From Oscillospiraceae bacterium (GTDB lineage Bacteria; Bacillota; Clostridia; UMGS1810): a stretch of 64,000 nt of DNA. The DNA lies in assembly GCA_015068985.1 (NCBI GenBank), contig SVJL01000002.1, positions 1-64,000 of the forward strand, read 5' to 3'. Position 1 is the stretch's first letter. The number at the start of each line of letters is the position of its first letter. The notes under the pieces were generated by a model. It was not told where the DNA came from. It saw only the letters and a list, made by a program, of their open reading frames with translations, and did no database searches. This document shows, piece after piece, positions 32,527 to 46,379 of this stretch. Position numbers and translations under genes: made by a program.

Positions 32527-32665
32527 TAAATTATTGTTTGATGACGAATTGTTAAAGAGGCTTGTAGGGAATGACCTATGTGTCATTCCGAAACGGAACG
32601 CCACGTAGGGCGTTCCCTACAACGCATTTACAAAATTCCATCTCACCTATAAACAATAATTTATA
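32527..32665. mobile_element. MITE-like element, family ATAAATTATTGTTTA
   Basis: Ends taaattattgttt / aaacaataatttata; internal hairpins ggaatgac/gtcattcc and ggaacgcc/ggcgttcc within tgtaggg...ccctaca. Confidence 0.65.
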
Positions 32666-34180: not shown

Positions 34181-34426
34181 TATAAATTATTGTTTATAGG
34201 TGAGATGGAACTAGGCTAATGTGTTGTAGGGACCGGCCTCTGGACGGTCCGTAAGAAATGCAGGCGGTCCGTCGAGGACGCCGGACCCTACAAACGATGG
34301 GCTTAATTTGTGAGTTGTAGGGGTCGATGCCCACATCGACCCGTTTGATGACATAATGGCGGGCGGATGTGGGCATCCGCCCCTACAAATCCAATAGCCT
34401 AGGCTCTTCGCTAAACAATAATTTAT
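34181..34426. mobile_element. MITE-like element, family ATAAATTATTGTTTA
   Basis: Ends tataaattattgttta / taaacaataatttat; internal tgtagggaccgg...ccggaccctaca and gggcggatgtgggcatccgccc modules. Confidence 0.7.
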
Positions 34427-42202: not shown

Positions 42203-43873
42203 CTATTCGGAATATATCTTCCCATCTTTGATGGTGATTGTCATATCGCTCATTTCAAGTGCACATTCCTTGTGGGAAATGATGATGCAGGTGCGGTCTT
42301 TGAGGTCTCTGATGTTTTGTAGCATCTGTTTTTCGGTTGTTTCATCAAGGGCAGATGTGGCTTCATCAAGCAGCAGTATGGGAGCACCCGAGCATATTGC
42401 CCTTGCAACTGCAAGACGTTGAAGCTGTCCTTCAGAAAGTCCTGCCCCACCTTCGCCAAGCTTTGAATCGAAGCCATCGGGCAGCTCGGCAATCACATCA
42501 TATATGCACGCAATTTTTGCTGCCTCGCATATTTGTTCATTGGTGGCGGAATCTGACATAAAGCTGATGTTGTCACGAATTGTGCCCGAGAGTATCATAT
42601 TGCCCTGAGGCACATATGCAAAGAGAGGTCTCAGGGATGCATCGGCAAGGTAGCTTGAACCGTCTGTGCAATTTACGTTCACGTTTCCGGAGTTCGGTTC
42701 GAGTATGCCAAGCATAAGCTTCATAAGTGTGCTCTTTCCTATGCCGGAAATTCCGGAAATTGCAACGAGCGAATTTTTTGGTATGGATACCGAGGCAGAA
42801 CTTAAAATTGCTTCGTTGCCGTAAGCGAAAGAAACATTATTCACAAAAATTTCTTTCATATTATTATATATGCTTTCACAATCGATATCAGAATATCTTC
42901 TTTCTTCGTCGGGGAGATTTTCTATTTCTATAACTCTCTCTGCCGATGCTATCATTGCATAAACCTGAGGAATAACAGATGCAAGCTCTTTGAAAGGAGT
43001 CTGAACCTGACCGACCAACTGAACAATTGCGGTAAAGGTGCCAACTGTCATGAGGCCAACAGATATTTTGTAGGCACACCAGCCAACGGCAAAATAGTAG
43101 CCAATGGTGAGAGATACAAAAAAGAGAATGTTGGCTATGATGCTTAAGTATCCTCTTTTCATAATAACTTTCATATGACTTTTTTGAAGAGATTTTGCAA
43201 TTGATATGATGCGGTCGTATACGCCAAAGGATTTTATGACAAGAATGTTTTGCATGGATTCCAGCATAAACGACTGGGTTTTGCCCTGACGGTTCTGGCA
43301 CTCCTTATGAAGGGGTTTTACCTTTTTGCTGTAGATTCTGGCAACTATCATCACAAAGGGGCCCACAATAAGGAAAATCAGAGCAAAGCTCGGATCAAGA
43401 ATATAGAGGGCACCAAAGCCAAGAACAATTCGCGAAAGAAACGATACCACATTAGGCACAATCGACATTACATTGGTTGTTATTATGCCAACGTCGCCGT
43501 TAAGACGGTTAAGAAGCTCACCGGAATGAAAGGCAGAGAGTGACGACCATTTTTTTTGCATAATTGCAGAAAAGATGCCACGCTGCAATTTGTTTTTGAG
43601 GGTGGTTTCTGTGTGGAGGTGGATTAGCGTGTAGGCTATTTGCAATGCAAGCTGCAAGCCTACAAGAAGTGCAAGGCTTTTTACAGCTCCCCAGATTTGT
43701 CCGCCCGATGTGGCAACATCAAGGAGTTCTTTTGAAACAAGAGCAAAACGTACGGATATGTAGGACACGCCAACAGCACAAAGGGAAAGAATTATTATTC
43801 TCCACAGGGCAAAGCGTGTGTTTTTGAAAATCCATCTGAGCGATTTGGGATTTTTAGTTTTAATGGTTATCAC
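42203..43873 (-). CDS. ABC transporter, fused permease/ATP-binding (exporter type)
   Basis: GISGIGKSTLMKLML Walker A; LSEGQLQRLAVARAICSGAPILLLDEATSALD; no N-terminal C39 peptidase domain. Confidence 0.92.
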   Translation of the reverse strand: MITIKTKNPKSLRWIFKNTRFALWRIIILSLCAVGVSYISVRFALVSKELLDVATSGGQIWGAVKSLALLVGLQLALQIAYTLIHLHTETTLKNKLQRGIFSAIMQKKWSSLSAFHSGELLNRLNGDVGIITTNVMSIVPNVVSFLSRIVLGFGALYILDPSFALIFLIVGPFVMIVARIYSKKVKPLHKECQNRQGKTQSFMLESMQNILVIKSFGVYDRIISIAKSLQKSHMKVIMKRGYLSIIANILFFVSLTIGYYFAVGWCAYKISVGLMTVGTFTAIVQLVGQVQTPFKELASVIPQVYAMIASAERVIEIENLPDEERRYSDIDCESIYNNMKEIFVNNVSFAYGNEAILSSASVSIPKNSLVAISGISGIGKSTLMKLMLGILEPNSGNVNVNCTDGSSYLADASLRPLFAYVPQGNMILSGTIRDNISFMSDSATNEQICEAAKIACIYDVIAELPDGFDSKLGEGGAGLSEGQLQRLAVARAICSGAPILLLDEATSALDETTEKQMLQNIRDLKDRTCIIISHKECALEMSDMTITIKDGKIYSE

Positions 43874-43891: not shown

Positions 43892-44124
43892 TATAAATTA
43901 TTGTTTATTGCTGAAAGCAATAAACAATAATTAGCTAAATTTGCCTTGCGGCAAGCTAAATTGACCATAGGTCAGCTAAATTGCCCTCGGCAGCTAAATT
44001 GTGCTTCGCACAGCTAATAGGCAAATTTTATTTAGCTGCACTTTAGTGCTATTTAGCTATTGAGCATAGCGAAATAATTTAGCTTTGAGCGTTAGCTCAA
44101 AATTTAGCTAAACAATAAATTTAT
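43892..44124. repeat. Micro-hairpin array: AGCTAAATT units separated by different perfect palindromes, bounded by MITE-family termini
   Basis: agctaaatt at 43933, 43954, 43974, 43992 and agctaa at 44012, with spacers tgccttgcggca, gaccataggtc, gccctcggc, gtgcttcgcac; right half carries inverted units (tttagct); ends tataaattattgttta / taaacaataaatttat. Confidence 0.9.
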
Positions 44125-44159: not shown

Positions 44160-44636
44160 TTATTTTTTCAAAAGGTAAGCACGCAATTTTGCAAGTGCTC
44201 CCAAAACCTTACCCATTGGGCGGCGAAGAGGGAAAAACCACACCCATAGGCGGGAATAAACAACATACCACCAGGTGCGGGTTGAATTCATCTTGTCAAA
44301 ACGTTCAAAAGCCACCATTTTGCCTATGCAGCAATCTGTGCTGATACCGCATTCTTTAACAGTTTCATTATCGCCTGCAATAACCAAAGAATCGCCCTTT
44401 ACTTTCAGAATCCGGTGAAACACATATCTCCCGTTTGGTCGGCGATAGAGAACAACGTCATACTTTTTGCAGAGTTCACATTTATCTATAATGACATTGT
44501 CTGTGCAATCACGAAGAAGCGGATACATACTCATTCCAGTGACTGTAAGCTTCACTTTCTTGCCATCGTCGAGACTATCTTTGATAAATGGCGCTATTTC
44601 GTTTATGCTTGGTCGAATTTTATTTGCCAACATCAA
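44160..44636 (-). CDS. S24/S26 (signal peptidase-like) serine peptidase, Ser-His type
   Basis: TGMSMYPLLRD and YVFHRILKVKGDSLVIAGDN; adjacent to PqqD. Confidence 0.75.
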   Translation of the reverse strand: MMLANKIRPSINEIAPFIKDSLDDGKKVKLTVTGMSMYPLLRDCTDNVIIDKCELCKKYDVVLYRRPNGRYVFHRILKVKGDSLVIAGDNETVKECGISTDCCIGKMVAFERFDKMNSTRTWWYVVYSRLWVWFFPLRRPMGKVLGALAKLRAYLLKK

Positions 44637-46131: not shown

Positions 46132-46379
46132 TATAAATTATTGTTTAGAAGTGAGCCTTCCCCTCGAGGGGAAGGGGGACCGCGTTAGCGTGACGGAAGG
46201 AGAGATTACGAATTAACAGGGTTTTAATTTCTCTCTCTCAGTCACTTCGTGACAGCTCCCTCATCAGAGGGAGCCATTCGGAACGAGCAAGCCCGTATAC
46301 ATTCACAAACTCTGCGGGCGATTCGTGAATCGCCCCTACAAATCCAATAATTCAAACAGTGCTCTAAACAATAATTTAT
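46132..46379. mobile_element. MITE-like element, family ATAAATTATTGTTTA
   Basis: Ends tataaattattgttta / taaacaataatttat; shares its 5' portion with the copy at 47433. Confidence 0.75.

Follow-up and report, generated by a model that had tools for sequence, protein, structure and literature searches.

A hairpin tree in an Oscillospiraceae genome as the putative recognition module of small, often S23-encoding, mobile DNA elements

Locus and anatomy of the hairpin array

The window, i.e. the whole 64,000-nt stretch of DNA analysed here (Oscillospiraceae bacterium, assembly GCA_015068985.1, contig SVJL01000002.1), carries at positions 43933-44112 a tree built from nested repeats and seven hairpins. 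The tree lies between two genes on the reverse strand, encoding an ABC transporter (42203-43873) and an S24/S26-like peptidase (44160-44636), both assigned to families by reading their translations. The first-pass annotation had placed the array between an S26 peptidase and an ABC transporter gene, which is correct, and all of the repeats and hairpins it listed were found where it had put them. Three congeners have the same two flanking genes without an insert, and the insertion at this locus is thus, judged by these genomes, lineage-specific.

The left half of the tree, read on the forward strand like all features below, consists of four copies of the word AGCTAAATT, named R1 (43933-43941), R2 (43954-43962), R3 (43974-43982) and R4 (43992-44000), each followed by a hairpin: hairpin 1, TGCC-ttgc-GGCA (43942-43953), hairpin 2, GACC-ata-GGTC (43963-43973), hairpin 3, GCC-ctc-GGC (43983-43991), and hairpin 4, GTGC-ttc-GCAC (44001-44011). 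The centre, AGCTAATAGGCAAATTT (44012-44028), starts with a partial repeat at 44012, and GGCAAATTT within it is complementary to 43937-43945, giving the 5' arm of hairpin 1 an alternative partner at 44020-44028. The right half holds the inverted repeats R1' (TATTTAGCT, 44029-44037), R2' (ATTTAGCT, 44051-44058), R3' (AATTTAGCT, 44076-44084) and R4' (AATTTAGCT, 44101-44109), the last of which closes the tree. Between them lie hairpin 5, GCAC-ttta-GTGC (44038-44049), hairpin 6 with internal GA/GA positions (ATTGAGCATAGCGAAAT, 44059-44075), and hairpin 7, TTGAGC-gtta-GCTCAA (44085-44100). An end hairpin, H0 (AATTATTGTTTATTGC-TGAAA-GCAATAAACAATAATT, 43896-43932), adjoins the tree. The tree is a full-length match to the covariance model R1 (192 bits), in which the words pair as R1:R4', R2:R3', R3:R2' and R4:R1' to form a central stem with hairpins branching off on both sides, i.e. 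a predicted stack of four-way junctions. The predicted fold of the array reached -55 kcal/mol, compared to -29.9 +/- 3.5 kcal/mol for shuffled sequences (z = -7.2), and none of 200 shuffles was as low. Exact AGCTAAATT words occur 66 times in the genome, versus 10 for the reversed control.

The array had also been described as bounded by TATAAATTATTGTTTA and TAAACAATAAATTTAT. These sequences are indeed present, but they constitute a separate feature, the terminal inverted repeat (TIR) of a MITE family, whose 14-mer has 108 exact matches genome-wide and none for the reversed control. The left TIR, TAAATTATTGTTTA (43894-43907), is overlapped by the 5' arm of H0, and the right TIR, TAAACAATAAATTTA (44109-44123), has one extra A. 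Other MITEs with these TIRs in the same genome have unrelated contents, and trees in other genomes lack the TIRs. Since it lies between 14-bp TIRs shared with MITEs of unrelated content, the window tree appears, as far as sequence comparison goes, to have been captured by a MITE and to have spread with it in this genome. More MITEs with the TIR pair TAAATTATTGTTTA/TAAACAATAATTTA and different, strongly palindromic contents were seen in the window at 34183-34425 and 46134-46378, along with single MITE ends at 32650, 39802, 47435 and 54443. The hairpin arm found at both ends of the window tree was considered as a 12-bp target duplication, a reading that was dropped as the feature is absent in other copies.

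Distribution and conserved pairing of the trees

The genome harbouring the window contains approximately ten tree copies, two of which share 97-99% identity with the window copy over more than 230 bp at unrelated sites. Diverged copies were found in 11 of 40 related genomes, across several families. Searches with the R1 model detected trees in 47 of the 291 genomes of the class, several of them with at least 9 copies, but in only 2 of 399 genomes of a phylum-wide sample. Scanning named genomes for the pattern yielded 104 stretches, and the matches listed among these were all from uncultured Clostridia, Ruminococcus, Oscillospiraceae and similarly named MAGs; the hosts of the tree elements are uncultured gut and rumen bacteria. 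Absence of the array from every other genome, which would have refuted its first description, can consequently be discarded. No match to the tree was obtained among the phages, plasmids and viral contigs searched, and a phage or plasmid origin was rejected on that basis. Two structural variants were observed among the copies: one contig carries two tree elements in tandem, with an end hairpin on each (L042/L049, G022:C16), and in two trees (L012, G000:C90:21945-22218; L032, G000:C37) the loop of hairpin 7 is interrupted by an element of approximately 272 bp with inverted ends (TTTAGCAGTTGCGT...ACGCAACTGCTTAGGC).

The pairing of the trees is conserved while their sequences change. When 18 trees were aligned without regard to structure, 91.7% of the cells were paired, versus 26-43% with slid partners; 38 of 64 pairs had two-sided changes, and none of 500 shuffles reached the score. 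When 86 distinct trees were fitted to the R1 model, 93.8% of cells were paired, two-sided changes were found at 57 of 63 pairs, and the covariation score was 0.431 compared to at most 0.070 in slid controls, an at least 6-fold difference, and none of 500 shuffles reached it; as this alignment was made by fitting to the model, it leans towards the structure. The two-sided changes bear out the initial suggestion that hairpins whose sequence varies while their pairing is conserved are either under selection or the product of a generating mechanism. Between subfamilies, the repeat words are replaced wholesale (AGCTAAATT; AGTTATATT/AGTGATATT; TGAAATA in L085, L087 and L088; GATATA in L089), and UGAAAU, GCGATATA and TCGATAT represent further word classes besides those of the R1 model. 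The topology is constant throughout, with four hairpins on the left, three on the right, and a centre complementary to the 5' arm of hairpin 1, and hairpins are exchanged between positions or lost as whole units.

An RNA under selection is expected to depart from Watson-Crick pairing by G-U far more often than by A-C. The trees contained 63 G-U and 57 A-C departures, whereas 62 and 3 were counted in the control, the acceptor and T stems of 67 tRNAs located at these loci (Fisher 2e-10), a result that was stable after redundancy thinning to 50, 14 and 11 sequences. tRNA detection tolerates G-U and the control therefore leans in that direction, but the equality within the trees does not depend on the control. 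Because G-U is no commoner than A-C, maintenance of the pairing in DNA is favoured over maintenance in RNA, and with it the earlier idea of a DNA structure or a recombinase. The inference rests on substitution patterns, and equal departures could also stem from a palindrome-making copying process such as template switching, without any binding.

The same trees bear on the Rfam family Gut-1 (RF01706), which is listed solely for the human gut and is known solely from environmental sequences (PMC2864571). The Gut-1 model matches the left part of TGAAAT-word trees with 72.9 (L087), 72.0 (L088) and 59.6 bits (L085), the gathering cut-off being 50 bits; the window copy scores 24 bits, which makes it a relative and not a member by score. 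The Gut-1 consensus comprises UGAAAU words with three hairpins between them. Both strands match the Gut-1 and R1 models, because the element is nearly self-complementary, and membership by RNA function, i.e. strand-specific pairing, is not met given the G-U and A-C counts. On these grounds we read the Gut-1 'RNA' as a fragment of the tree element family, which would re-assign this Rfam entry to a piece of a DNA element.

Insertion sites and complete elements

Among the 93 trees with enough upstream sequence, 84 were adjoined by an end hairpin with 6 or more pairs, 21 were located directly behind an annotated tRNA and 9 more behind CCA and an A-run. Insertions of type T are precise and directly 3' of the CCA of a tRNA gene, and those of type P are directly 3' of a promoter -10 box. 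Within L252, one tRNA 3' region is present in both an empty and a filled copy. In the genus to which G074 belongs, G125 and G230 have no insert at the tRNA-Lys site, which is occupied in G074 and, by a different element with S23, in G210; a tRNA-Met site is unoccupied in G230 and occupied in G074. A promoter site that is empty in G125 and G170 has a AGCTAAATT tree in G074 and a AGCGATATA tree at the same base in G210. The compared sequences show that different elements took the same site independently. Short motifs (CCA, TATAAT) are present on both sides of the elements, and the -10 box is not always identical at the two ends (TAGAAT/TATAAT), which leaves target-site duplication and element-encoded ends indistinguishable. 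The possibility that the left hairpin is the terminator of the tRNA itself was rejected, since the same hairpin is found at different tRNAs and since empty sites show a different native terminator, which is situated beyond the element when the site is filled.

Complete relatives are built in a common order: the end hairpin H0 comes first, then the tree, in many cases an S23/IVP (PF05635) gene, in some a passenger gene, and finally a right end (G/T)GCATCTAAA. Their S23 ORFs score above the cut-offs of PF05635 and TIGR02436, the 23S rRNA intervening-sequence family, and in 16 cases the ORF starts 19-70 nt from the tree end on the same strand. The block common to different loci extends from the end hairpin through the end of the S23 ORF. 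S23 genes were found in 41 of 47 genomes with trees, versus 49 of 244 others (p = 1.3e-18, without phylogenetic correction). The latter 49 genomes thus have S23 without a detected tree, and six have trees without a detected S23; the R1 model may miss trees built from other repeat words, and most of the genomes are incomplete MAGs. Of 29 S23 genes of relatives, 13 have a tRNA or tmRNA gene on their own strand no more than 500 nt upstream. T-type S23 elements have a promoter-like sequence, as seen in the sequences, between the tree and the S23 ORF, and the tree is therefore probably, if that sequence is a promoter, absent from the S23 mRNA.

The passenger genes vary. An element from the window's own genome (L019), complete with a 121-aa S23, carries a methyltransferase, L045 a pyrophosphatase-like protein just under the Pfam cut-off, and L102 and L104 small proteins without family assignment. 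L040 has a NUDIX gene after S23, although no right end was identified there, and L060 has a NUDIX ORF joined to the start of S23. The right end consists of (G/T)GCATCTAAA and a target-specific part, which is ...CGTTCACTGATTCTATAAT in the -10 type and ...TGTTCTGCCTTGCCA and similar in the tRNA type; two more promoter types of right end exist besides ...CGTTCACTGATTCTATAAT. The window copy has neither S23 nor a (G/T)GCATCTAAA right end, the place of the latter being occupied by the right TIR.

Some further arrangements were observed. Two elements (L251, L261) combine the left end of one target type with the right end of another, suggesting, from sequence, exchange between element types. L111 and L218 have no tree but contain the right-end motif in palindromic form (GCGAACAATTTAGATG-..-CATCTAAATTGTTCGC). 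No tree was detected at the S23 genes of L066, L068 and L069 either; these genes lie between inverted arrays of short words (GCAGAATGCAAAATG; TTGAAAATGGAAAGTTG), which may be a different route to a stem around S23.

Interpretation and comparison with known systems

On balance, we consider it probable that a small mobile DNA element, here called an 'S23-tree element', has the array as its tree module and is recognised as folded DNA together with an S23 partner. Sequence comparison suffices to establish mobility, insertion sites, architecture, DNA-level pairing and linkage to S23. Binding of the tree by S23 and a role of the tree as recognition signal are inferred, without any experiment and without direct evidence that S23 binds or moves anything. 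The tree would be recognised during movement as a DNA structure, either single-stranded or cruciform, and S23, being the only protein regularly encoded by the elements, would bind it in cis, or in trans for tree-only copies. For cutting and joining, an as yet unidentified enzyme would be needed, and a resident reverse transcriptase or Y1 transposase cannot fill this role in every host. In the genome of the window, the captured tree was probably spread secondarily by the transposase acting on the TIRs.

The window copy taken alone resembles an ordinary MITE, a non-autonomous TIR element moved by a DDE transposase with the hairpins as incidental cargo: the copies here end in 14-bp TIRs with TA outermost that are common to MITEs with other contents. 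As an account of the array we find this unlikely, and it is already insufficient for the whole family, as trees of the same architecture elsewhere are without the TIRs, end differently and are inserted at tRNA CCA or -10 boxes, and since pairing kept through a complete change of repeat words is unexpected for passive cargo. Single-strand DNA transposition of the IS200/IS605 or REP-RAYT type, in which a Y1 transposase supplied in trans would act on the hairpins, would accommodate the hairpin near the left end, the target sequence that flanks the left end and has a similar counterpart ending the right end, and the lack of a clear target duplication; Y1_Tnp is also weakly enriched in genomes with trees (35 of 47 versus 137 of 244). 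Such a mechanism nevertheless seems quite unlikely, because CCA and TATAAT are not one short target word and because Y1_Tnp was not found in the draft genomes G000, G100 (98% complete) and G293 (93%), among others, despite several trees. Taken singly, the absence of an enzyme from a draft genome is weak evidence.

A structured non-coding RNA (Gut-1), or an RNA-based retroelement in which S23 acts like its DGR relative Avd, is in our view decidedly improbable. The Gut-1 matches to the left part of the tree (up to 72.9 bits), the resemblance of S23 to Avd, the partner of a reverse transcriptase (PMC10053308), and the location of P-type trees downstream of promoters would all fit, but the trees lack a G-U preference, the models match both strands, and RVT_1, the reverse transcriptase that a group II intron, DGR or retron would require in its host, was absent from 7 of the 10 tree-bearing genomes searched, among them G148 and G293, each more than 90% complete and with several copies. 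Chance or an assembly artefact, for which it can be said that the genome is a draft MAG and that several copies lie at contig ends, has a negligible probability and is already refuted by the recurrence of the architecture in dozens of independent assemblies and by orthologous sites that are both empty and filled.

For the S23-tree element, a broader claim would be that of a mobile element class without a recognised transposase or reverse transcriptase, whose signal is a purely pairing-constrained hairpin DNA tree and which has S23 as partner, tRNA CCA and -10 boxes as targets, and passenger genes; on this the sequence data leave us evenly divided. If true, the class would explain both the orphan S23/IVP family and the orphan Gut-1 'RNA'. 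S23/IVP proteins have been without an assigned function since their discovery in rRNA intervening sequences, and are here part of elements that insert with base precision. We know of no other element in which a multi-hairpin tree is conserved at the DNA level while its words change. No such elements were described in the open-access literature on S23 mobility, repeats and tRNA insertion (subscription papers were outside the scope). The S23 protein and the single traits are known, whereas the combination, the DNA-level tree and the targets are undescribed in the open-access literature searched, and it is about a toss-up whether the full reading is correct.

Each of the known systems shares part of these traits. 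The UGAAAU words and three hairpins of Gut-1 correspond to the left part of UGAAAU-word trees, but Gut-1 spans only 77 of approximately 180 positions, without the right half, S23 or insertion logic, and was proposed as an RNA (PMC2864571). With TA-flanked TIR MITEs, the window copy has its 14-bp TIRs in common, a sequence present 108 times in the genome, whereas complete relatives lack such TIRs and their tree is under a pairing constraint. IS200/IS605 and REP/RAYT elements are similar in their hairpin ends, target-like right end and unclear duplication, but the tree elements encode no Y1 transposase and possess a multi-hairpin tree and S23. The DGR accessory protein Avd is a structural relative of S23/PF05635 (PMC10053308), but neither a reverse transcriptase nor a template or variable repeat was observed with the trees, and RVT_1 is absent from most hosts tested. 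The intervening sequences (IVS) of 23S rRNA, e.g. in Coxiella burnetii, are selfish elements that carry S23 and whose function and origin are unclear (PMC4990558). Like the tree elements, they are small and transposase-free, encode the S23/IVP four-helix bundle, reside at a stable-RNA locus, and have inverted repeats at their ends and an unknown mechanism of movement (PMC4990558). Of the traits defining an IVS, an encoded S23 is met by the complete relatives and not by the window copy, and location in 23S rRNA is not met. IVS are located within hairpins of the 23S rRNA, from which RNase III excises them, whereas the tree elements are found 3' of tRNA CCA or -10 boxes, with a seven-hairpin DNA tree in front of the S23 gene and passenger genes.
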